From a virus, in the IMG/VR virus record IMGVR_UViG_3300040815_000399, positions 1-25,990 of that record: a DNA stretch of 25,990 nucleotides, one strand, 5' to 3'. A program made the translations under genes and the position numbers. This document shows, one piece after another, positions 3,550 to 23,480 of the stretch. Each line of letters starts with the position of its first letter. Position 1 is the stretch's first letter. A model generated the notes under the pieces. The model searched no databases. It was given only the letters and a program-made list of their open reading frames with translations, and was not told where the DNA came from.

Positions 3550-6500
3550 TTACCTCCCTAATGCTCTAGTGTCGAGCTGTCCATATACAGGTAGCCATTT
3601 ATATCCATCAAAGTCACCAGTAGCTACATCCCATGCTTTTTCTGCACTTGGTCCTAATATAGGCACAAAGAATGGGTTTCCATATCTTTTATCTTCCATA
3701 AATAAAGGAATAGCTAAAGCAAAGGGCCCTAGCTGACCTGATCTATCTAGAACATCAAACCAATATTCCCCGCTAGACATACTTTGTGAAGCCCTATAAT
3801 TAACTCCAGGGTCATTTGGACTTATACCAGGCAAGAGCCAAGATAGTCCTATTTTAAATCTTTCTCTTAAATCCCAACCCAACATAGTCAAAGGCATCAA
3901 TAAACTTGCACCGAATAACAAAGGTGCTACGCCATCTGCTATATGCCCTGTTTCTCCTTTTCTAGCTTTACCTTCTCTAATCAAGCCGCCCATTATGTTT
4001 TTGCCATATGCATAGTAGAAAGATTTTAACTGCCAGACTAATGCAAAGTTAGGATCAGAAGCCCAAATAGGCCTTTCTGCTGCGTTAGGTCTTACTATAG
4101 ACTCATCTACAAATCTACCCATAGCTGCTGCTACTTCAGGGTGTGCATCAATATCTTGTCCTTGCGCAGCTAAAATTTGGTCAGCTGTTACGTTAAGTTC
4201 TTTTAGATATCTTTCTGAAAGCAAGTAATCTTGGTCTCCTTCATAGCCATTCTTTATTGTTTCTGCATGTTTAAGTAAAAAGTCTCTACCCATACCAGCT
4301 GCAAACTTTCTAGTAAACATAGTCCATCTTTCTAACTGCGTATACTTAAACCAACCATTAGATAATTTTCTACCCCATTGGTCTAGCATGTCCATCTCAC
4401 CTGCGTACAAAATAGTAGTAGCCGCAGCTTCAACACCGTTAGTACCTATAGATTTAGCCAGTCTTGCTCCTTCTTTTTGTCCCATAGCTTGATATAAATT
4501 CTTGCCAACAGTTTTTAAATCAGTATTTCTACTACGCAGAATAGGCCCTGCTGCGTCTGGTATAGAAGCAAAAACAGCCATACCCAAAAGGTTAAGTACA
4601 TTTAACAACAGTCCTCCACCTGTTATTTTTCTCCACATGTCATTCTTGATAGGATTTATATTACCTAACATAGCATCTATAGCTTCTTTAGCTTGAGCTC
4701 GTTCTTCTGCAGGTAATTGATTTACTAAAACATTTACCCTAGCTGCGCCTCCTCTTTTTTCGTATTCAGCACGTCTGACTGCTTTTCGTACGTATTCAAG
4801 AATTGCTATTTCAGGGGGTAGAATTAAGCCTTCGTTTAATAATGTTTCGCTATCTAAAGCTTCATATAGTTTAGCTCTATCCTTCTGCATGCCTATTTCA
4901 AAGTCGTCATTTTTTGTAGCTAAATTAGGATCTTTTTGATTTTTCTTTATTGTTTTTTCAACATTTTTTGTAGCTTCTTCTTCCGTAATGTTATTACGTT
5001 CAGCTAGTAATTTAATAAGAGTTGCACGTTTTGCATCTTTAGAAGCAATGTCTTGTATGTGTAATATACGAGGGAAGAAGTTAGGTCTTCTTTCTATATC
5101 ATACTTAGATAGCTCTAACTCATCATATATGTCGAACAAAAACTTACGTACCTGCTGTGCTTTTGGAGAGAGTTCTGCGTCCGAAAGCTTTTCATTACTA
5201 GCTTCTTTAAACACTGCTACCTCTTCTTTAGTAAAAGCTTTGTCTGTACCAGTAAGAACATTTATATTGTCATCATCTCGCAAAATACCTACAAGTCTAT
5301 TTATAAACTGGTTAGTTCTTCTATTAGCTTCATTAATAAAACCTACATCTTTTTGGTTGCCGCTTACTGTATGAAAGATATCTGCAATATCTTTACCAAC
5401 GCCGGTATCTGCGCCAAGTGTGCCTAAGAAACTGTGAGCATCATAGAATAATTTTTTAAACCATTTAGGCATTTTTCCATTTTTAATAATTCTTTGTGCC
5501 TCATCATTAATTCTTTTTACTTGTTTCTCTCCTACTTTAGGTGGGAAGACTGCATCTAACATATCTTCTATATGAGCTTTCTCCATATAAGTAGTATCAT
5601 TCTCTCTAGTGCTAGGTTCTTTAGCAGCGTCTAATACACCGTTTACATACTCAGCAAATGTTTCACTAAAAGCAAACCTATTTTGTACTACACTTATCTG
5701 AGGTCTAATACTATTCTCAAATGCTTTTATAGATTTTGCAATACGCAGTAATACAGACTCTCCTATGTTTTTAGCTTGTAAGACTTGTCCTTTATCTAAG
5801 TCAAAAAGGTAAGCACCTATTTTGTCAGAGGCCCACTCTTCCATTCCGTTTGCCTGTTGCCACTGTCCTACTTCTGGACTTTTTTCTTTGGCTTTATTAA
5901 ATTCTTTAATTAACTTTGCCCTAATTTTAGGGTTGCCTAAAGTTTTTAAAAGTTCTGTTCGTAAAAAACTATGACCTATTTCATGTCCTAACCTTTTGTA
6001 ATATAGGCCTTGTAAATCTAAATCAGGGTCTATGCCTACCTTTAAAATGATAACATCGTAGTCCCTCATTTCTATATTAATACCTTTTATGGAGTCTTTA
6101 CTTAAAACATAATCTTTACGTTCATTCAGATATTTGTTTACGTTCTCATCTCCAACATCAATGTTTTCACTTTCTCTAGTAGTAAATACTTTTATCTCTT
6201 TTGTAATGTTTAATTTATCAGTTGCAGTTTTTATCAACTGTTCAATGATTGCTTTATTAACGCCAAAACTATTTACGAAGTCTTGTGAAATAGTTACATT
6301 CTTTGGCCTAGCTCCAGGCTTCTGTTTAATCTTAGTAAACTGTTGTTTTGCCCAAGATGCTTGTTCCGCGTCCCACTGTTCATCTGCAGGCATCTCATTA
6401 AAAATAGGATCGCCTTCCTCTTCACTTATTTGTTCAGGCCCTAAATCTTGCATAGGGTCAAAAGCTCCTTCATTTAAAACTCTTTCCAAAGTTTCTAAAT

Positions 6501-9210
6501 CACTGCTATCAAACTCACCTTCTTGCTCGGTACCTATACGTTCTTGTAGCTCATCTGCTTTTTGACGTACGAGGTTTCTATTTCTAGGATCAATCCCAAA
6601 CCTATTATTAAGACGCTTTTCTGGTTTGGTTAAAGGCTTATCTTCTTGTTCTCTAGCAGCTTCAAAAAGTTGTCCTAGAGTAAAAGTCAAGTTTCCATCT
6701 TCTTCTGTATACACAACTGCTTCTGGATCAGAAAAGGTTGCGTCCGAGATATCATCGAATTTAAAAGTAAGCTTTTGGTTATCGCTTTCTAATAGACTAC
6801 CTACAAGGGTAGTAAAAGTGTCGGCAAGTTGCTGTCTGTAATTTTGGTTACTATCTATAACTCCCGTTCTACGCAATACTCTTAAGTAGTTATTTAGTAA
6901 ATTTGGCATATCTACTGCTCTAGAAGTGCCATCGTTAGAAGCTATTTGCCAGCGGCTTTGTCTTGCTCTTTTAGTATCTTTAGCTCTTCGTACGGCAGCA
7001 TCTAAATCACTTTTTATAGACTCAAATCCTTCAGCTCTTTGCATAGGGTTTGTTGCATATGGTGCTATAACGTATCCACCATCTTGTTCTTCTATTTTAT
7101 AAGTTCTTTCTGCATCAAAATACACATCAGACACTTGTACGTACCTTTGAAGAAGAAGCCTAGAATATTTATTGTCTCGTATATTTTTATCAAACTCTTC
7201 TCTAAACGCAGGGTCTACTAAAGCTCTAGCCTCGGCTACTAATTCTGGAGAAGGTTGTGTATTTTCATAGTTCTCATCCGGTGCTGACCAAGGTTTTTTA
7301 TTTTGATTTATAAAGGTTTTAGTTTCTACCTTACCAGTATCTTCGATTTTAGTAGGAACTTCTGATTCTATTGTTTCTTGGAAGTCATTTTCAAACTCTC
7401 TAAAATCAAGATTCTCTTGCATAGAATCTAAATCAGTATCTTCTATAAGATTTTCTGTAGGTGCTACAGCTTCAGACCTAGCATCTAAATGTGTTTCTCC
7501 ATCTACAAGTTCGTATGTGTACTCGGGGTTATTACCAAAAAGTTGCTTAGCTTGTTCTAAATGTGTTTGCCCGTCTTCGTTTATTGCACTAGTTTGATGG
7601 TAGTGAACAGGCACGCCGTCTTTATTTTTTACTTCTACTACATGTGTATCAGTAGCTAACCTACTACGGGGGTAACTTAAGAAACTACTTAAAGCATCAT
7701 CTAACAACTTAGTAGAAGGAGTATTTAACTCCATAATTTGTTTAAAAGATTGAATTTGTTCTGGGTCAGCAGATAACAAAATACCACCTAAACCTGTTTC
7801 AGGGTTGCCCATGTCATAGCCTTTAAGGTTAGGGTACTGTTTAAGTACCTCATCTGCGATAGTGTTCCATTGATCGTAGCTATTCACATCTATCCAAACA
7901 TTTGTCTTTTTGTTGGTTGGATCCATCATGGCGTCTATTTGAGCTTTAATATAAGAAGCAGGTTCTTTTACTACACCAGGACCGCCTTCTCCATATTTTG
8001 CTCTATACATCTGTTGTAAGGCTTCTTTTTGTTGGTTCGTTTGTAGAAGTTCGTTAGCCTTTGCAGTAATACTAGATGCTGTAGTTGCAGCTCCACCCAT
8101 ACCAAAACCACCTACTGCACCAGCAAACGCAGAGGTTGCTAAATCTAACTTAGCTTGTTGTCTAGTGTATTCATCATCTATTGCAAACTTTTGTGCTACT
8201 TCAATAGCTGTTTGTCCTGTCTCTGCTAAACCTTCTGCACCACTAGATACACCAACAGAAGTAAGCGCTTTCTTACCTATTTGAGAACTTTGCTTACCCG
8301 CTGGGGTTAATAAAGACCTACCCCCTGAATTTTTAAATACATCAGTAACTGCATCGAATACTATCTTTTCTGTACCTACTCCTATAACAGTTGCAGGCAC
8401 ACCTAAAAGACCTGCTTGTAAAGCATTAACAGGATCAGTCATACCTTGGTCTGCAAAATTACCAAAGAAAGTACCGGACATTTGCGGGTACTCTTGCGCA
8501 GCTGCACCAGCTATACCACCTCTAGTAAGTCTTCTTTTATACATTTGTGCTTGAAAGTTTTTATAGACTGCGTCCATAATCTTTTTTTGTTTGTTACTTA
8601 AGGCTTGTTTTTTAGAAGCAGCTTCTACAGCTTCTGTAACCATCTTTCTAGTTAAACCTTGTTTAGCTAATCTAGTCGTTACACCTTCGGCTGTTTTTTT
8701 AGTTATTGCAGCTCCAGTTGCGCCTACTAAAGTAGCAGGTACGGTTGCGGGAGAGGTCAAGGCTGCGATAGCGGTACCAACTAAAGCAGTACCTACAGTA
8801 GCTACAGCGGAAGGAGCTATCTCTCCTGTAAACCCAAGTGCAGCATTCATAAAATCTTCAAATGTGCCGTTCTCAAAAGCTGCTCTTTCAAATGCTGCTG
8901 CAGAGTCTACGTAAGAAGCAGCGCTACCAGCCGTTTGCGCTTGTTCAGCTTCATATATAGAGTCTCTCATCGCCTGTTCTTGACCCGTCATAGAGTCAAT
9001 CATAGCTTTGAAATAATTGGTGTTAGCCTCTATGTTTTTAACACCTTTATTAAAACCAGAAGCTATCTGTCTAGCGGGATCAAACTCATAGCCAAGTACA
9101 GGTGTGGGTGTTTCTTCGGCGTAAAGCCCAGGTACAGCAGAATCTACGTCAGGTACGTCATAAAGAGAGCTTACCAGCGATTTGACTGGATCATTGGATT
9201 GTTGCGACAT
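3550..9210 (-). CDS. Giant internal virion (ejection) protein with a zincin-like HExxH domain
   Basis: At 1886 residues this is the largest gene in the window. Long Ala/Gly-rich hydrophobic stretches lie at about residues 127-172 and 1530-1557, and a membrane-like segment at about 1753-1775. The middle is charged and alpha-helical. At residues 1076-1080 is HEIGH, a zinc metallopeptidase-type HExxH motif, followed 43 residues later by EEWASD (1124-1129), which could supply the third zinc ligand. The C-terminal 350 residues (RFVDESIVRPNAAERP, WQLKSFYYAYGKNI, ending GQLDTRALGR) resemble the end of very large marine-phage polyvalent or internal proteins. Like T7 gp16, it may travel into the cell with the DNA, cross or open the envelope, and carry an enzymatic payload. 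No lysozyme or transglycosylase motif was recognised. It overlaps the upstream 741-residue gene by 20 bases. The ejection role is inferred; the motif is seen. Confidence 0.7.
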   Translation of the reverse strand: MSQQSNDPVKSLVSSLYDVPDVDSAVPGLYAEETPTPVLGYEFDPARQIASGFNKGVKNIEANTNYFKAMIDSMTGQEQAMRDSIYEAEQAQTAGSAASYVDSAAAFERAAFENGTFEDFMNAALGFTGEIAPSAVATVGTALVGTAIAALTSPATVPATLVGATGAAITKKTAEGVTTRLAKQGLTRKMVTEAVEAASKKQALSNKQKKIMDAVYKNFQAQMYKRRLTRGGIAGAAAQEYPQMSGTFFGNFADQGMTDPVNALQAGLLGVPATVIGVGTEKIVFDAVTDVFKNSGGRSLLTPAGKQSSQIGKKALTSVGVSSGAEGLAETGQTAIEVAQKFAIDDEYTRQQAKLDLATSAFAGAVGGFGMGGAATTASSITAKANELLQTNQQKEALQQMYRAKYGEGGPGVVKEPASYIKAQIDAMMDPTNKKTNVWIDVNSYDQWNTIADEVLKQYPNLKGYDMGNPETGLGGILLSADPEQIQSFKQIMELNTPSTKLLDDALSSFLSYPRSRLATDTHVVEVKNKDGVPVHYHQTSAINEDGQTHLEQAKQLFGNNPEYTYELVDGETHLDARSEAVAPTENLIEDTDLDSMQENLDFREFENDFQETIESEVPTKIEDTGKVETKTFINQNKKPWSAPDENYENTQPSPELVAEARALVDPAFREEFDKNIRDNKYSRLLLQRYVQVSDVYFDAERTYKIEEQDGGYVIAPYATNPMQRAEGFESIKSDLDAAVRRAKDTKRARQSRWQIASNDGTSRAVDMPNLLNNYLRVLRRTGVIDSNQNYRQQLADTFTTLVGSLLESDNQKLTFKFDDISDATFSDPEAVVYTEEDGNLTFTLGQLFEAAREQEDKPLTKPEKRLNNRFGIDPRNRNLVRQKADELQERIGTEQEGEFDSSDLETLERVLNEGAFDPMQDLGPEQISEEEGDPIFNEMPADEQWDAEQASWAKQQFTKIKQKPGARPKNVTISQDFVNSFGVNKAIIEQLIKTATDKLNITKEIKVFTTRESENIDVGDENVNKYLNERKDYVLSKDSIKGINIEMRDYDVIILKVGIDPDLDLQGLYYKRLGHEIGHSFLRTELLKTLGNPKIRAKLIKEFNKAKEKSPEVGQWQQANGMEEWASDKIGAYLFDLDKGQVLQAKNIGESVLLRIAKSIKAFENSIRPQISVVQNRFAFSETFAEYVNGVLDAAKEPSTRENDTTYMEKAHIEDMLDAVFPPKVGEKQVKRINDEAQRIIKNGKMPKWFKKLFYDAHSFLGTLGADTGVGKDIADIFHTVSGNQKDVGFINEANRRTNQFINRLVGILRDDDNINVLTGTDKAFTKEEVAVFKEASNEKLSDAELSPKAQQVRKFLFDIYDELELSKYDIERRPNFFPRILHIQDIASKDAKRATLIKLLAERNNITEEEATKNVEKTIKKNQKDPNLATKNDDFEIGMQKDRAKLYEALDSETLLNEGLILPPEIAILEYVRKAVRRAEYEKRGGAARVNVLVNQLPAEERAQAKEAIDAMLGNINPIKNDMWRKITGGGLLLNVLNLLGMAVFASIPDAAGPILRSRNTDLKTVGKNLYQAMGQKEGARLAKSIGTNGVEAAATTILYAGEMDMLDQWGRKLSNGWFKYTQLERWTMFTRKFAAGMGRDFLLKHAETIKNGYEGDQDYLLSERYLKELNVTADQILAAQGQDIDAHPEVAAAMGRFVDESIVRPNAAERPIWASDPNFALVWQLKSFYYAYGKNIMGGLIREGKARKGETGHIADGVAPLLFGASLLMPLTMLGWDLRERFKIGLSWLLPGISPNDPGVNYRASQSMSSGEYWFDVLDRSGQLGPFALAIPLFMEDKRYGNPFFVPILGPSAEKAWDVATGDFDGYKWLPVYGQLDTRALGR

Positions 9211-12560: not shown

Positions 12561-12990
12561 TAACTTCCTTCCTATAAATTCGTGTATCTAACTCCCATCC
12601 AATCTTTTTGGTGTACGATTCCATCTCTGGAACTCGTGACCTCGCTTCGAGGTACTTACAACCTGCTGATTTTGCTAAGTTGTTAAACCACTCTTCATGG
12701 GCCACCCACTGGTGCCCGCCTTTTCTATAAGTATACGCTATCCATAGCAATAATGTCTTGTCTTTTGTAAACTGATCTACCTCTACAGTCAGTATCAAAA
12801 AACCTACAGACGACATGTAAAGAAAAGCTCTTTCGTTTACACATTCGCTGTAAACATCTTCAGGAATAAAAGTAAGGGTAGGATTTTCTTTTAATATATC
12901 GAGTATGCCTGTTTTTACTACGTTCCAACATTTTCTTATGTCAGCAAACTCGGGTTCCTCAATAGTCGATTTCCTTTCCGTACTTTCCAT
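12550..12990 (-). CDS. Phage protein with possible GNAT-like fold
   Basis: A 146-residue protein. The order of elements is a helix (WNVVKTGILDILKENP), FIPEDVYSECVNERAFLYM, a strand pair GFLILTVE and LLLWIAYTYRKGG, a helix WFNNLAKSAGCKYLEARSR, and a final YTKKIGWELDTRIYRKEV. This fits small phage proteins predicted to have an acetyltransferase (GNAT) fold and commonly found beside connector genes. The classical acetyl-CoA-binding Q/R-x-x-G-x-G/A loop is not convincing here (YRKGGHQWVA in its place), so enzymatic activity is doubtful. The start is supported by AAGGAGACGGT just upstream of the ATG. The gene overlaps its upstream neighbour by 32 bases. The fold and any role in virion assembly are inferred. 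Confidence 0.55.
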   Translation of the reverse strand: MESTERKSTIEEPEFADIRKCWNVVKTGILDILKENPTLTFIPEDVYSECVNERAFLYMSSVGFLILTVEVDQFTKDKTLLLWIAYTYRKGGHQWVAHEEWFNNLAKSAGCKYLEARSRVPEMESYTKKIGWELDTRIYRKEVNGS

Positions 12991-13633
12991 ACCGTCTCCT
13001 TGGTAGTCCTATTCCTTTGTACTTAACAGTTCTTTTTACCCCTAGGTCTCCGCCTCGGGCCCTTAATTCTGCTTGTGTTATTTCTAAATTAAACTGATAT
13101 AAATATTCTTGTGCCGCCCCTATGTCTGTCCATTCTCTATTTGGCATCCTTAATAACCTATATAAAGTGCCATATATAATCGCATCTCTGTACTGATTAG
13201 AAATTGTAGTGTCAATATTATTTGAAGTCCTGCTTGGCTTTAGAGCTAGGCTTACTATTACTTGTTTAGACCCACTTGGTACTGGAACAATCCAAAAAGT
13301 AGTTGCTGTTTTTTGCAGATAAACGTGAGGGTTTCCGGTTCTATTCCTCCAATCTGGGTAATTTAATTCTAAACTACGTGGGCTAATAGGGTCCATGTCC
13401 CTACCATCGTGTGTCATTAGTAAAACTTGATGAACTTCTGTTCCTGTAGGTATATCAAAGTCGTATTCATAAACCCCAGAAATAGTATTAAAAGGATCCA
13501 TATCAAGTATGTATGCTTTAGACCTTTCACAAAACTCTATAGTAGCAGAACGTAAGTTCTGTTCTACTAAAGAATCTGGGCACAACGGTACATAAGGTAG
13601 TACTTCTTTTACTAAAGAAGAATAGGCTGCCAC
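12959..13633 (-). CDS. Head-tail connector / tail adaptor-type protein
   Basis: A 224-residue protein beginning AAYSSLVKEVLPYVPLCPDSLVEQNLRSATIEFCERSK. This matches the pattern of a conserved podovirus protein found next to the connector, with an N-terminal helix pair, Cys-Pro turn and IEFCERS helix. A beta-rich middle follows (YEYDFDIPTGTEVHQVLLM; FWIVPVPSG; VIVSLALKPS), and then a helical region, YRDAIIYGTLYRLLRMPNREW. The C-terminus is very basic (GLPRRRYGKYGKEID). The predicted start is GTG, with AAGGTAGGT just upstream. It follows the previous connector gene by only two bases. Together with that gene it probably forms the ring stack between portal and tail. This is family resemblance plus position, not proof. 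Confidence 0.6.
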   Translation of the reverse strand: MAAYSSLVKEVLPYVPLCPDSLVEQNLRSATIEFCERSKAYILDMDPFNTISGVYEYDFDIPTGTEVHQVLLMTHDGRDMDPISPRSLELNYPDWRNRTGNPHVYLQKTATTFWIVPVPSGSKQVIVSLALKPSRTSNNIDTTISNQYRDAIIYGTLYRLLRMPNREWTDIGAAQEYLYQFNLEITQAELRARGGDLGVKRTVKYKGIGLPRRRYGKYGKEIDY

Positions 13634-13635
13634 AT

Positions 13636-14355
13636 TTACCTACCTTGCTGCATTATTTTGGGAACAGCTCCTATGTTAGACACTTGGTCGTTATTTGGAT
13701 CTAGTAAAGCTGAAGACTGTAAACCTTGACTTATACTTGATGTAAATAACTGATAATGACTAGAGGCTCTTTGAGAATTTCCTGCGTACTCCGCATCTTT
13801 CATATATGCTCTGTAAAGAACAAAATCAATAATAGCGTTAGCATAAATATCATCAACACTAATAATGTCACTAGCTGCTGATAAATCTGTAGGTGCGGCT
13901 GAGTAAACGATTTCTACGTATGAATTACCAGATACGCCTGGATACACGTAAAAGTTTCTTGGGTCATCTTCATCAAAGATATAATGTTTTACAATAGCCC
14001 CGTGCGCTGCATCTCCTGAAACTGCAGGATCATGCCAATCCGGTTCTTGTGTATTTAAAATGTCAACGTTTACTATTCTAATAGACCTTTTACCAGTGCC
14101 GTCAGAAGCAGCAGACATATTTCTTACTACTTTTATTAGCCTTAAACCTGCTGCAGGCAAAGATTGTTTAGTTCCAGCAACTAAAGTTATAGTAGCTGTA
14201 GTAGCACTAGACTCAGGCCTGAAATTAACAATCTCTCTTTGTGCATCGTTTATATAGTTTAAGAGTTCGGATTCGGTCCATCTAACACTAGTAGTGTCTT
14301 GTAATGTATCCCTAATTCTACTAAGTAAATTAGTGCCTGTAAGTGTCCCTGCCAT
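13636..14355 (-). CDS. Phage adaptor/connector protein
   Basis: A 239-residue protein. The N-terminal motif LLSRIRDTLQDTTSVRWTES, followed by ELLNYINDAQREIVNFRPE, is typical of a head-to-tail adaptor family in which a helical bundle packs against the portal ring. I believe this family is catalogued as DUF6682, but I cannot check it. A beta-rich central part follows (ITLVAGTKQSLPAAGLRLIKVVRN; NFYVYPGVSGNSYVEIVYSA), then a helix DDIYANAIIDFVLYRAYMKDAEY and a Ser/Gln-rich tail. It lies six bases downstream of the SAP-like gene and two bases upstream of the second connector gene, which fits a head-completion module. Its role is closing the portal and docking the tail. Confidence 0.65.
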   Translation of the reverse strand: MAGTLTGTNLLSRIRDTLQDTTSVRWTESELLNYINDAQREIVNFRPESSATTATITLVAGTKQSLPAAGLRLIKVVRNMSAASDGTGKRSIRIVNVDILNTQEPDWHDPAVSGDAAHGAIVKHYIFDEDDPRNFYVYPGVSGNSYVEIVYSAAPTDLSAASDIISVDDIYANAIIDFVLYRAYMKDAEYAGNSQRASSHYQLFTSSISQGLQSSALLDPNNDQVSNIGAVPKIMQQGR

Positions 14356-19252: not shown

Positions 19253-20896
19253 TTACGCACTCATTGCCGATTTCTTTTTCGGCCCTTTTGCCATTAATTC
19301 TAACCTATCTCTCCACGAAGGTACATGCTCGGGTGCTTCATAAAAAGATGCATACTCTGTCATCATTAAACCAACCCAGGCCAAAGCATCAACTTGGTCA
19401 TCATGCACGCCATTAGGAAAACGCAAAAGTTCAGCCACAAGAGGCCCAGTCCAGATTGCATCTTCAGGTACAAAAACTCTACCCTGTTGCATCCTACCCT
19501 GAATAGCTCTAGCTCTTGCTTCTTTGTCACGTCTCCCTACTTTTAAATCTTTAAAATATGCAGAATGTAATCTACGCTCTGCCACACGTTTCTCTAAGAA
19601 AGGACCGATGGCCATTTCTATATGTCCACGTTCTATTCCTACTATACCAGGTCTCCACTGTTCGTAGAAATCTAATATTTTTTCTACCAATTCAAAACCA
19701 TCATACTTGCCACGGATCATATCGACAACAAACATATTATCGTACTCATCGATACCTACCATTATGCCAACAGAATAATCGTTTCTATCTCTTTGCCCGA
19801 TAGCTAAATCCCATGCGCAATAATAACGCATCTTATCATAGTCTATATCAGCCGGGTCATAATATTGAATCATGTCTCTAGTAAAATAATCACCTTCATC
19901 TGATACTGGGTTCTGTTGATATAGAGCCGTCCAGTCTCTAGGACCTATAGCTTTTTGTATTTTTTCTAAAGACTCTACATCATATCGTTCGGGATGCAGC
20001 GGTTCGCCCGTTGCACGAAACTCTTCATCTTCTTCTGCAATGGCTGGATATTTAACTACTTCCCAATCGTCCGCACCATTTTCACTAGCAGTCAACAAGC
20101 GTCCGGCTAGATCATCATCGTGCCATCTTGTTAAAATAACCAAGATACCTCCGCCTGGAGCAAGACGGGTATAAGCAGTAGAAGTGTACCAATCCCAGGT
20201 CGCTTCTCTATTGTTTTCTGATTCTGCATCTTCTCTGTTTTTTACCGGGTCGTCGATTAATAATATGTGCGCACCTTTACCTGTGATACCACCACCGACA
20301 CCAGCTGCTACATAACCACCGCCCTCGGTTGTTTGCCAGGACTCTACAGACTGTGAATCTTTGTCTAATTTAGTAGATTCAAAAACTTTTTTATAGTTTG
20401 GCTCTCTGAGCACTTGTCTAACTTTTCTAGAAAAACTCATAGCTAACGAACCTGAGTATGAACAGCTGATAAACTCATGTCCGGGGTTACGTCCGAGGTG
20501 CCAAGCAGGAAAGGCAATACTTGCAAGGGTAGATTTACCATGACGAGGGGGCATAAACAGCATAAGTCTTGGGGATTTCTTATCTGACACGTCTTGACTA
20601 AATTTTTCTAGCCTATTGCATATATCTTTGTGCACCCAACCCGCTTGGTAGTCTGGATTAAATTTTTCAACGAAGGGCAACATGCGTTTTCTGGATAAAA
20701 TACGCTTTGCCAGCTCTTGCTCTGCACGAATTTGGGCATTTTGTTCTTTTTTTGATATTTTTTCTTGTTTTTGGGGTTGAGGAAGCTGTTCTGCCTCGTC
20801 TGCGGCGCAATATACGCACAAACCTTTGGGTAAAACTAGGTTATCTGCTAATAATTTCTTGCATTTATAGCATTCTATCTTAATTTGATCTGTCAC
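19253..20896 (-). CDS. terL: Terminase large subunit with N-terminal zinc ribbon
   Basis: A 547-residue packaging motor. The ATPase domain has the Walker A motif PPRHGKST (residues 116-123), Walker B ILLIDDP (211-217) and a coupling motif, ILTRWHDDDLAGRL (254-267). The nuclease domain begins at about 355, with acidic residues at D363 (AWDLAIG), E422 (GIERG) and D499/D500/D503 (HDDQVDAL), as in RNase H-like terminase nucleases. It cuts concatemeric DNA and pumps it through the portal. Unusually, residues 7-31 carry CxxC...CxxC (C9, C12, C27, C30), a probable zinc ribbon ahead of the motor. The gene begins 4 bases after the basic-protein gene and ends next to the portal start. Identity is certain; the cleavage mode (headful or other) is not readable from this alone. 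Confidence 0.95.
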   Translation of the reverse strand: MTDQIKIECYKCKKLLADNLVLPKGLCVYCAADEAEQLPQPQKQEKISKKEQNAQIRAEQELAKRILSRKRMLPFVEKFNPDYQAGWVHKDICNRLEKFSQDVSDKKSPRLMLFMPPRHGKSTLASIAFPAWHLGRNPGHEFISCSYSGSLAMSFSRKVRQVLREPNYKKVFESTKLDKDSQSVESWQTTEGGGYVAAGVGGGITGKGAHILLIDDPVKNREDAESENNREATWDWYTSTAYTRLAPGGGILVILTRWHDDDLAGRLLTASENGADDWEVVKYPAIAEEDEEFRATGEPLHPERYDVESLEKIQKAIGPRDWTALYQQNPVSDEGDYFTRDMIQYYDPADIDYDKMRYYCAWDLAIGQRDRNDYSVGIMVGIDEYDNMFVVDMIRGKYDGFELVEKILDFYEQWRPGIVGIERGHIEMAIGPFLEKRVAERRLHSAYFKDLKVGRRDKEARARAIQGRMQQGRVFVPEDAIWTGPLVAELLRFPNGVHDDQVDALAWVGLMMTEYASFYEAPEHVPSWRDRLELMAKGPKKKSAMSA

Positions 20897-20899
20897 TAG

Positions 20900-21196
20900 T
20901 TAGCATTTCCATCTTCTTCTAGCTTGTCTGATTCTAGAATTAGGGTTATTCCTTGTTTTCGCTGAACTTCTCTTTAATTGACCTAAAGATCTTGCGCAAT
21001 ATGACTTTCTTCGCTTCGCAGCTTTAGAACCTTTCTTAACTTTACCAGTAACAGCAGTCTTTAACTTAGAACCGGGGTTCGCGCGCCTGTATGCAGCCAC
21101 GCCTTTTTTGGTCATACCGGCACCAGATTTGGTTTTTCGGTAATTACCGCCTTTTCCTGTTGTTCTTCGTATTGGATTTTCTTTTTTTCTTGGCAT
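20900..21196 (-). CDS. Small basic Lys/Arg-rich phage protein (DUF6321-like)
   Basis: A 98-residue, extremely basic protein with the conserved pattern GMTKKGVAAYRRANPGSKLK, TAVTGKVKKGSKAAKRRKS, YCARSLGQLK, ending RQARRRWKC. I know this layout from small proteins of marine phages and large aquatic viruses, and I believe it is catalogued as DUF6321, though I cannot check that. High charge suggests nucleic-acid binding, for example DNA compaction or a packaging accessory role next to the terminase. Two cysteines (YCAR, WKC) are conserved in my recollection of the family. Its start lies inside the preceding gene (53-base overlap, different frame) with only a weak upstream ribosome site. Translation probably depends on coupling. 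Confidence 0.7.
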   Translation of the reverse strand: MPRKKENPIRRTTGKGGNYRKTKSGAGMTKKGVAAYRRANPGSKLKTAVTGKVKKGSKAAKRRKSYCARSLGQLKRSSAKTRNNPNSRIRQARRRWKC

Positions 21197-21452
21197 AAGT
21201 TCTCACATTTGTTGGCTTTCCACCCACTCCTTGCGCTTTAGCTCGTTTTCTTTTTACTGCGCTCCTTTTCTGAGCTGCAGTCATACTGGCAGCTTTAGAC
21301 TTTGGTACGCATTTTGGGTAGCCTTTACGTTTTGTCGACGCTTTCTTTCTACCGCAAGGTGCATGTCCGCCACCTTTCTTTTTTCTACCTATATCAACCC
21401 ACTCTTCTTTGAACCATTTTGTTAGTCCGCCTTTGGGTTTAGAAGTGGCCAC
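21144..21452 (-). CDS. Small basic phage protein with GGLTKWFKEEWVDI motif
   Basis: A 102-residue, very basic protein starting at a GTG that overlaps the previous stop (TAGTG). The N-terminus KGGLTKWFKEEWVDIGR is followed by APCGRKKAS, YPKCVPKSKAASMTAAQKRS and KRKRAKAQGVGGKPTNVRT. This matches a small conserved protein of aquatic phages and viruses that I believe is listed as DUF5872-like (not verified). The paired CGRK and KCVP cysteines could form a disulphide or bind a metal. It lies between the terminase subunits, in a block of similar basic proteins, which points to a packaging, DNA-binding or virion role. The exact function is unknown. The C-terminal 25 residues are almost all Lys/Arg/Asn. 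Confidence 0.7.
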   Translation of the reverse strand: MATSKPKGGLTKWFKEEWVDIGRKKKGGGHAPCGRKKASTKRKGYPKCVPKSKAASMTAAQKRSAVKRKRAKAQGVGGKPTNVRTYAKKKRKSNTKNNRKRR

Positions 21453-21625
21453 TACCTATAGCCTCCACCCCTTGCTTTATAAGTTTTTGTTAACCAACCA
21501 GAAGCATATGCAGATGGCCAAACTTTATATTTTCTTTTAGCTTCTGCTTTTACTCTAGCGTACAGAGCCGGATTAGTCGGCTTTGCACCACTTTTCTTTT
21601 TAGTAGCTTTTCTTTTTGCCGCCAC
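21452..21625 (-). CDS. 57-residue basic protein with KPTNPALYARVK motif
   Basis: A short frame beginning at GTG (21625) and ending with TAG at 21452-21454. The residues AKPTNPALYARVKAEAKRKY, KVWPSAYASGWLTKTYK and a final ARGGGYR form a compact, well-conserved pattern that I recognise from small marine-phage proteins. Those are unnamed to my knowledge. Composition is strongly basic, with aromatic residues (VWPSAYASGW) that suggest a real folded domain rather than a chance frame. Its start overlaps the end of the preceding small gene by 26 bases, and its stop overlaps the next GTG by one base. No good ribosome site precedes the GTG, so it probably relies on coupling. The start is uncertain: ATT or ATC codons lie just upstream in frame. 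Confidence 0.6.
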   Translation of the reverse strand: MAAKRKATKKKSGAKPTNPALYARVKAEAKRKYKVWPSAYASGWLTKTYKARGGGYR

Positions 21626-21713
21626 GATAATTCTTTTTGGTTGTACCTTTAGATTTCTTTTTACCAGACATCTTCATTTTTTTGCCTGGCTTCTCATTTA
21701 TATAACAATGCAT
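21600..21713 (-). CDS. 37-residue Lys-rich peptide
   Basis: The frame begins at an ATG overlapping the preceding stop codon (TAATG at 21711-21715) and encodes MHCYINEKPGKKMKMSGKKK followed by SKGTTKKNYRGGKKKSY. It is almost entirely basic with no predicted secondary structure. The stop/start overlap, the same strand and its place inside a chain of overlapping small basic genes favour translation. An internal ATG (MKMSGKK, residue 13 or 15) could be the real start. It may be a nucleic-acid-binding tail peptide. Because of its small size and low complexity it may also be a coding remnant. Confidence 0.4.
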   Translation of the reverse strand: MHCYINEKPGKKMKMSGKKKSKGTTKKNYRGGKKKSY

Positions 21714-21865
21714 TACTTACCTCTCTTTTTTGGAATGACTCCTCTACCCATGAGAATGTCTTTCTTTGTTACCTTACCATCTCCAGAATAATCTGGAAAC
21801 TTTTTCATTTTAGAAACTTTACGTTTCTTTTTTCGAGCTTGTGCAGCTTGTGCATATTTAGTCAT
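21713..21865 (-). CDS. 50-residue basic protein with a single EF-hand-like calcium loop
   Basis: This frame starts at an ATG with a near-ideal ribosome site (AAGGAGGT, four bases upstream) and overlaps the small terminase stop by eight bases. The N-terminus is basic (AQARKKKRKVSKMKK). Residues 25-36, DYSGDGKVTKKD, match an EF-hand/dockerin calcium-binding loop: D at 1, S at 3, D-G at 5-6, V at 8 and an acidic residue at 12. The loop is followed by ILMGRGVIPKKRGK. I recall similar short proteins with DxxxDGKVTxxDVLxGRG in marine phages. A single loop could bind calcium weakly or act in pairs. The link to packaging genes suggests a role in the virion or assembly, but function is unknown. The strong ribosome site makes expression likely. 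Confidence 0.65.
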   Translation of the reverse strand: MTKYAQAAQARKKKRKVSKMKKFPDYSGDGKVTKKDILMGRGVIPKKRGK

Positions 21866-22388
21866 TAGTACCTCCTTGGGGTTCTAGATATTTTGTATCT
21901 ACTCCAGCCAACTTTAACAACTCGGAATCAGACATTCGTTCTAGCTGCTGAATTTTATCTACATTGATATTAACTTGGGTTGCTTGCTCTGGGGCAAATA
22001 GACCGTGGAGCTTGCACAACGAATCGACAACATTTTTTTCTTCAGTCGCGGTCGCCGATTTACGATGCGCTTCTAAATATAATTGGGTCGCGGTATTTCT
22101 ATCGAACTTAACTTCTTCGCGCATCTCTTCTCTTAGGTACTCGATGGCTTGCATAATCTTTGGTCGCTTAAAAGCTTCGTACACGGAATCTTGGTTCCTG
22201 TACCCCGCTGCACGGCCCGCTGCCGCTTTGCTCATGCCACGTAAAAAATACAAAATTAATCTTTCTTCTTGGACCGAAAGCTCGGATAACTTTACACCCG
22301 CGTACGGAAAATGTGATTGGAGTTCCAATCTATCTTGTTCGGTGACCGCGGTCGATTGATCTGCAACTAAGCTCATACTCGTAAGCAT
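21858..22388 (-). CDS. terS: Terminase small subunit
   Basis: A 176-residue protein. A helix-turn-helix-like region (EERLILYFLRGMSKAAAGRA, then AGYRNQDSVYEAFKRPKIM) is followed by a helical oligomerisation segment (AIEYLREEMREEVKFDRNTA), EEKNVVDSLCKLHGLFAPE and a short C-terminal tail. This is the usual architecture of small terminases, which recognise phage DNA and hand it to the large subunit. It is the first gene of the leftward late operon, and the large terminase follows after the small basic genes. Start choice is uncertain: ATG at 22388 gives MLTSMSLVADQ, while a second ATG four codons in (22376) is equally plausible. Neither has a strong ribosome site. Overlap with the EF-hand gene is 8 bases. 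Confidence 0.8.
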   Translation of the reverse strand: MLTSMSLVADQSTAVTEQDRLELQSHFPYAGVKLSELSVQEERLILYFLRGMSKAAAGRAAGYRNQDSVYEAFKRPKIMQAIEYLREEMREEVKFDRNTATQLYLEAHRKSATATEEKNVVDSLCKLHGLFAPEQATQVNINVDKIQQLERMSDSELLKLAGVDTKYLEPQGGTND

Positions 22389-23117: not shown

Positions 23118-23195
23118 CCCATGTCCTAACTACTATCATCAAGGTGCGCGAGCTAATGCGAGCGCATGCATGCTTCATGCAAACTTGGTTCCTTC

Positions 23196-23479
23196 GGTTC
23201 CACGGATATATGCCCATGTGGAACCATGTCGTGGAACCACGACGAAGGCGCATGCCAATGCGGTCTCGCGACGGACCAACATACTGTTGGTTCCGTTGTT
23301 CCACGTGGAACAAAACCTAGTTTTGTAACGGACCACGGACAACGGTTAATGAATAAAGATTAACTTAACCTAAAACAAGTGGAACCAGTGGAACCAAACC
23401 TCTAACCACGCATCGTTATCAGGTTTTTCGTGTTCCATGACTCGTGGAACCAAGTGGAACCAGTGGAACCATAGTTCCA
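23196..23479. repeat. GTGGAACCA repeat array
   Basis: The 9-mer GTGGAACCA occurs exactly at 23218, 23231, 23379, 23388, 23444, 23454 and 23463, all on the plus strand. Pairs at 23379/23388 and 23454/23463 are directly abutting. Reverse or partial copies lie at 23196-23203 (GGTTCCAC), 23287-23294 (TTGGTTCC), 23431-23438 (TGTTCCAT) and 23474-23479 (GTTCCA). The repeat shares GTGGAAC with each half of the central palindrome. Such clustering is unlikely by chance and suggests an array of binding sites for one protein. Confidence 0.8.
23296..23313. promoter_or_regulatory. parS-like: Perfect 18-bp palindrome matching the parS consensus
   Basis: TTGTTCCACGTGGAACAA is a perfect palindrome. Its central 16 bases, TGTTCCACGTGGAACA, fit the bacterial chromosomal parS consensus tGTTNCACGTGNAACa, bound by ParB. 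No parA or parB gene is visible in the window. The site could recruit host ParB, serve a phage-encoded ParB-like protein outside the window, or be the strongest operator of a protein that also binds the GTGGAACCA array. Confidence 0.65.
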
Positions 23480-23480
23480 A

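Follow-up and report, generated by a model that had tools for sequence, protein, structure and literature searches.

Five short, overlapping genes between the two terminase genes of a marine, P22-like phage encode strongly basic proteins, and the explanation that we favor, with a probability of about 0.5, is that they form a cassette of late-expressed small proteins that enter the virion with the DNA and bind nucleic acid. This reading is suggested by the charge of the proteins, purifying selection on their genes, linkage to the terminase genes, the tendency of the genes to travel together, their fusion in T4-like cyanophages, and the association of one fused relative with virions. The two families involved, DUF6321 and DUF5872, are already named, without an assigned function. 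In the literature searched, DUF6321 was not named and DUF5872 hardly at all (it is annotated in the algal virus CpV-BQ1, PMC12085832), and neither a functional assignment nor a comparison of the split and fused forms was found. Both families are widespread in marine phages, and their genomic position, fusion, and virion mass spectrometry (MS) give them a testable role as particle-borne nucleic-acid-binding proteins.

Layout and composition of the cassette

The DNA analyzed comprises positions 1-25,990 of IMG/VR virus record IMGVR_UViG_3300040815_000399, and this whole 25,990-nucleotide stretch is referred to as the window. The cassette and the terminase genes that bound it are all on the minus strand and are given here in gene order, from upstream to downstream:

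21858..22388, minus strand: terS, small subunit of the terminase, 176 aa, bounding the cassette upstream (PHROG 51, E=2e-7, weak)
21713..21865, minus strand: P5, basic 50-aa protein with a single dockerin/EF-hand-type loop, DYSGDGKVTKKD
21600..21713, minus strand: P4, Lys-rich frame of 37 aa, without a family
21452..21625, minus strand: P3, basic, 57 aa, N-terminal half of DUF5872 (PF19197 positions 1-38)
21144..21452, minus strand: P2, basic, 102 aa, C-terminal half of DUF5872 (PF19197 positions 50-101), with a conserved Cys pair
20900..21196, minus strand: P1, basic, 98 aa, DUF6321 (PF19846), with the C terminus R-R-W-K-C
19253..20896, minus strand: terL, large subunit of the terminase, 547 aa, bounding the cassette downstream (PF03237, 75 bits; PHROG 38, E=2e-126)

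The coordinates and lengths of the five frames (50, 37, 57, 102, and 98 residues) are as given in the original prediction, which had been made from the sequence alone, and its assignment of the flanking genes to the small and large terminase subunits was confirmed by profile searches, weakly for terS (the Pfam match to Terminase_2, E=0.003, is below the cut-off). Adjacent genes overlap by 8 bp (terS/P5), 1 bp (P5/P4), 26 bp (P4/P3), 1 bp (P3/P2), and 53 bp (P2/P1), and the spacing from P1 to terL is 3 bp. The late genes of the window are P22-like and include a portal (PF16510), a Phage_capsid_3 protein (PF13252), and two SU10-type adaptor homologs in tandem (12959-13633 and 13636-14355). Another late gene (3550-9210) encodes a protein of 1,886 aa with no Pfam match above the cut-off, a candidate internal virion protein. 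Upstream of terS, the exact palindrome TGTTCCACGTGGAACA (23297-23312) is located within a GTGGAACCA repeat cluster (23185-23480), and the exact site is found again upstream of terS in six relatives (L010, L012, L019, L034, L035, and L037). This palindrome resembles parS and might serve in partition, as an origin, or as a pac site.

P1-P5 are real genes. The frames had been described as Lys/Arg-rich, and the composition bears this out: Lys and Arg make up 30-38% of P1-P5, compared with 5-15% in 16 late genes elsewhere in the window, and the isoelectric points are 10.3-12.0 (10.8 for P5 and 10.3 for P4), compared with mostly 4-6 for the same late genes. The pN/pS ratios relative to homologs are 0.16-0.28 for P1-P5 (0.28 for P5, 0.22 for P3, and 0.17 for P4), next to 0.16 for terS and 0.10 for terL; thus, all five are under purifying selection, and these values, together with retention in relatives, rule out chance open reading frames. 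P4 is the least certain of the five, because it is of low complexity, overlaps its neighbors, has few distinct homologs (8 in the pN/pS comparison), and matches no family.

Protein families and their distribution

P1 matches nearly the whole DUF6321 profile (PF19846) at 46.3 bits, above the curated cut-off of 28.5, and PHROG 10346 at E=1e-24. It shares with this family a conserved C-terminal Trp-x-Cys: W-[K/R/N/E]-C is present at the C terminus of 214 of the 221 P1-homologous frames, as WKC in 203 of these. Here DUF6321 is a free-standing 98-aa gene beside terL, whereas in cyanophages it is the C-terminal domain of proteins of 337-738 aa. DUF5872 (PF19197, 116 positions) is divided over two genes with a 1-bp overlap, P3 and P2, since they match profile positions 1-38 and 50-101, respectively. 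The P3 match reaches 41.2 bits (cut-off 27.5) over the N-terminal third only; that of P2, with the right order and position, is at 22.5 bits (E=2e-4), below the same cut-off, and P2 also matches PHROG 23735 (E=6e-21). Three members of the set, one DUF6321 and two parts of DUF5872, therefore do have relatives in aquatic viruses, in agreement with the original prediction.

The remaining two proteins are less easily placed. P5 retains the pattern D-x-[S/T]-G-D-G-K-[V/I]-T-x-x-D of the dockerin type I or EF-hand loop, which is kept in 46 of 63 non-redundant homologs. However, its identity as a dockerin was rejected: the score against Dockerin_1 (PF00404), 17.8 bits, is under the cut-off of 22.9, and P5 has one loop instead of two Ca-binding repeats and no cellulosome context. 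P4 had no match in Pfam or PHROG, and among P1-P5 there was no Pfam match to a histone-like or nucleoid DNA-binding family. At P5-type loci (e.g., L136 7245-8699, L266 1707-2495, and L304), otherwise unrelated marine phage proteins carry a nearly invariant motif of ~21 residues, FPD[L/Y]SGDGKVTKKDILMGRGV, once as a tandem repeat (L136); it looks like a mobile Ca-loop tag.

To describe conservation in the phage's own terL lineage, we used 80 terL relatives collected irrespective of the small genes, which gave 55 distinct terS-terL gaps of 222-2608 bp. P1 is present in 53 of them, P2 and P3 in 34 each, and P5 in 29; P4 profile matches, which are noisy owing to low complexity, were obtained in 40, and two gaps have none of the five. 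Thus, the cassette is conserved but variable, with DUF6321 as its constant member. The original prediction of a conserved set is right, although the five do not form one fixed unit, as relatives keep differing subsets.

Genes of the P1-P5 types are also found in Pelagibacter phages, roseophages, and uncultured phages; Pelagibacter phage HTVC027P carries DUF6321 and DUF5872C together with the P5 motif. At 69 DUF6321 loci outside the terminase lineage, a P3-type gene lies within 1.5 kb in 43 cases and a P2-type gene in 39, always on the same strand, against ~16 and ~14 expected from uniform placement (these loci are related, so no formal probability is attached). Fourteen outside-lineage records match both DUF6321 and terL, and in all 14 the two are on the same strand, at a distance of 1.5-3.4 kb in three and 8.6-18 kb in the others. 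In pelagiphages, the cassette is ~9-18 kb from terL and always on the terL strand. The split DUF5872 of CRP-2 precedes terL by ~3 kb. Annotated maps show cassette genes in late regions, close to genes for the capsid, the tail, or lysis. DUF6321 relatives were additionally seen in 28 contigs (L418-L445) of mostly aquatic bacterial or archaeal metagenome-assembled or single-amplified genomes from scattered phyla; these are more likely viral than host genes.

Fused relatives in cyanophages and virion data

In T4-like cyanophages, the same domains are found in one protein. Proteins of 337-561 aa that end in DUF6321 are encoded by P-TIM68, S-BM3, S-CREM2, S-SCSM1, S-B68, S-B43, and MA01, and the fused gene is located between terS and terL in P-TIM68, S-CREM2, S-B68, and S-SCSM1 (in the last, terL is two genes away from gp29). 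We used the podovirus-type genes to build profiles and scanned 77 complete fused proteins with them: 44 have the order P2-P3-P1, that is, DUF5872C-DUF5872N-DUF6321, two have these three domains and a second P2, 28 have P3-P1, and three have P1 alone. A search with S-SCSM1 gp29 or S-CREM2 ORF137 as the query yielded 84 distinct IMG/VR loci. Both terminase genes are visible in 23 of these, and in all 75 loci with enough room terL follows downstream on the strand of the fused gene, with a median gap of 8 bp. The fused forms are matched by 497-507 of 50,697 phage records. Smaller fusions join P3 to P1 (L210) and P2 to P5 (L266/L267). Because fusion tends to link functionally related proteins, these arrangements support a joint role for the parts of the cassette.

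The T4-GC119/DUF6321 proteins of Kyanoviridae (S-CREM2 ORF137, S-SCSM1 gp29, P-TIM68, and S-BM3) thus resemble the cassette in their domains and in their terS-terL neighborhood, usually just before terL. On the other hand, the Kyanoviridae form is a single fused protein that has additional domains and whose linkers are acidic, whereas the genes of the window are separate, and Kyanoviridae are myoviruses with a gp21-type prohead protease, whereas Pfam and profile searches recognized no prohead protease in the window. Linkage to terminase genes, which had been proposed, if constant, as a sign of a packaging role, is very strong in the terL lineage and at the testable T4-like cyanophage loci, but it is not constant, as the set is mostly 8.6-18 kb away in pelagiphages and other phages; homologs lie mostly far from packaging genes in some lineages and not in others.

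The virion data come from two of these cyanophages. S-CREM2 ORF137 (108049-109521), which is between terS and terL and matches DUF6321 at 40.8 bits, is among the proteins identified in virions purified on CsCl, with four unique peptides and 4.1% coverage; its basic neighbor ORF136 was detected with eight peptides, and neither terminase subunit is in the virion protein table (PMC10665884 Table 3). The ORF137 peptides may derive from a part other than the basic domain. S-SCSM1 gp29, which has all three domains, is labeled "virion protein" in GenBank, and this label is missing from terS, terL, a baseplate wedge gene, and the genes for head completion and the hub. Because the terminase and several structural genes are unlabeled, this label appears to track MS detection. 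We counted 48 such labels in the record, which exceeds the 45 proteins detected by MS in the S-SCSM1 virion (PMC9602691), so that detection of gp29 is likely, not certain. The earlier suggestion of virion proteins thus gains published MS support through a cyanophage relative, and through that relative only; in the literature searched there was no virion MS for this phage or any podovirus-type relative, and no pelagiphage virion proteome was identified from titles. Two S-SZBM1 proteins were considered as relatives and rejected, as neither is related to the cassette: gp190, a virion-detected protein from the terS-terL interval, and gp195. The latter (L325 5377-5640) is an unannotated 87-aa protein encoded directly after terS, and its virion emPAI is the third highest, behind the major capsid and portal proteins.

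Proposed role of the cassette and possible processing of the fused form

If P1-P5 are carried in the virions of this phage, as we infer from these relatives, the basic proteins, which come from the gene block that also holds the terminase genes, might attach to the genome or to the complex of terminase and DNA while packaging proceeds, could neutralize charge within the capsid, and would probably exit with the DNA at infection, by analogy with T4 internal proteins. The T4 proteins IPI-IPIII are small, become part of the head, and undergo trimming by gp21, and IPI enters the host along with the injected genome (PMC9958956); the proposed likeness would be in size and carriage in the head rather than in sequence. 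DNA binding by P1-P5 is plausible from charge and position. Results that argue against the proposed DNA-binding virion role include the distance of the pelagiphage cassette from terL and the lack of a recognized DNA-binding fold when models of modest confidence were compared with the PDB. Neither the P1/DUF6321 model (mean pLDDT 71, pTM 0.51) nor that of the fused cyanophage protein (mean pLDDT 66, pTM 0.28) had a PDB match at E<0.001, and searching PDB sequences with profiles likewise gave no match. The VIA-align rows mainly concern the middle beta domain, with an ordinary best Z of 5.1, and the structure matches in the viral library are mostly to the same cyanophage family.

Other roles would fit parts of these data. 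The tight terS-terL or terL-proximal site in two very different groups, together with the 3-bp gap and the overlaps that suggest coupled translation, would suit proteins that assist the packaging motor, either by linking TerS and TerL to DNA or by adjusting cleavage or headful packaging, and that do not remain in the virion; yet a DUF6321 relative is found in virions and the terminase is not, and the set is 8.6-18 kb from terL in pelagiphages and other phages, which makes this role rather unlikely. We consider it improbable that the proteins are injected or early-acting peptides of host takeover, with the nucleoid, RNA, or ribosomes of the host as binding targets: they are small and basic, with conserved Cys and no enzyme motif, and virion carriage of a relative would permit delivery, but their genes accompany late structural genes and share the strand of terL in all records where both were found. 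The variable length and composition of the terS-terL gap, and the description of the cyanophage relative T4-GC119 in a possible mobile cassette (PMC3037559), could also mean that small genes which are mobile or rapidly exchanged use the gap as a cargo site, with the five as passengers lacking a joint function. Selection, the retention of P1 (53 of 55 gaps), the joint occurrence of the genes at other genome positions, and the several fusions that unite them all speak against this, and we regard it as very improbable. If the preferred virion role is correct, proteins resembling protamines or IPs are packaged alongside the DNA in many of the phages that abound in the ocean.

More tentatively, the same basic virion peptides may be made in two ways: from separate small genes in the P22-like phage and from a polyprotein cleaved by a gp21-type protease in cyanophages. 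The fused protein would enter the prohead, where the protease would cut before each basic domain and release free DUF5872C, DUF5872N, and DUF6321 peptides onto the DNA, and the fused form would then be a phage polyprotein processed within the capsid. We scanned 53 non-redundant fused proteins for cleavage sites, with expectations taken from the same proteins. The pattern [ILVMF]-x-Glu precedes the DUF5872 C domain by no more than 8 residues in 45 of 49 proteins (8.8 expected) and the N domain by no more than 12 residues in 46 of 50 (12.4 expected). A Glu just before DUF6321 is nearly universal, and a hydrophobic residue three positions before a Glu is found within 8 residues of this domain in 26 of 53 proteins (10 expected); with just these 26 conforming, the strict T4 (L/I)xE rule was rejected there. 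Asp in place of Glu occurs in 0 of 49 proteins before the C domain, but when wider spans are allowed it is somewhat more frequent than expected before the N domain and DUF6321. S-CREM2 encodes a Peptidase_S77 protease, and its capsid protein aligns at LLTE|A with the cleavage site FLTE|A of T4 gp23, from which an N terminus of 65 residues is removed. Since the linkers are acidic and the fused proteins are related, we treat in-capsid cleavage as a hypothesis. A Lys-rich protein is encoded next to the fused DUF6321 gene (L320 3014-3727 and L321 2941-3549; the S-CREM2 copy is ORF136), and its S-B68 copy starts with MKTYEEMLNE, which we take to resemble the T4 capsid-targeting sequence.
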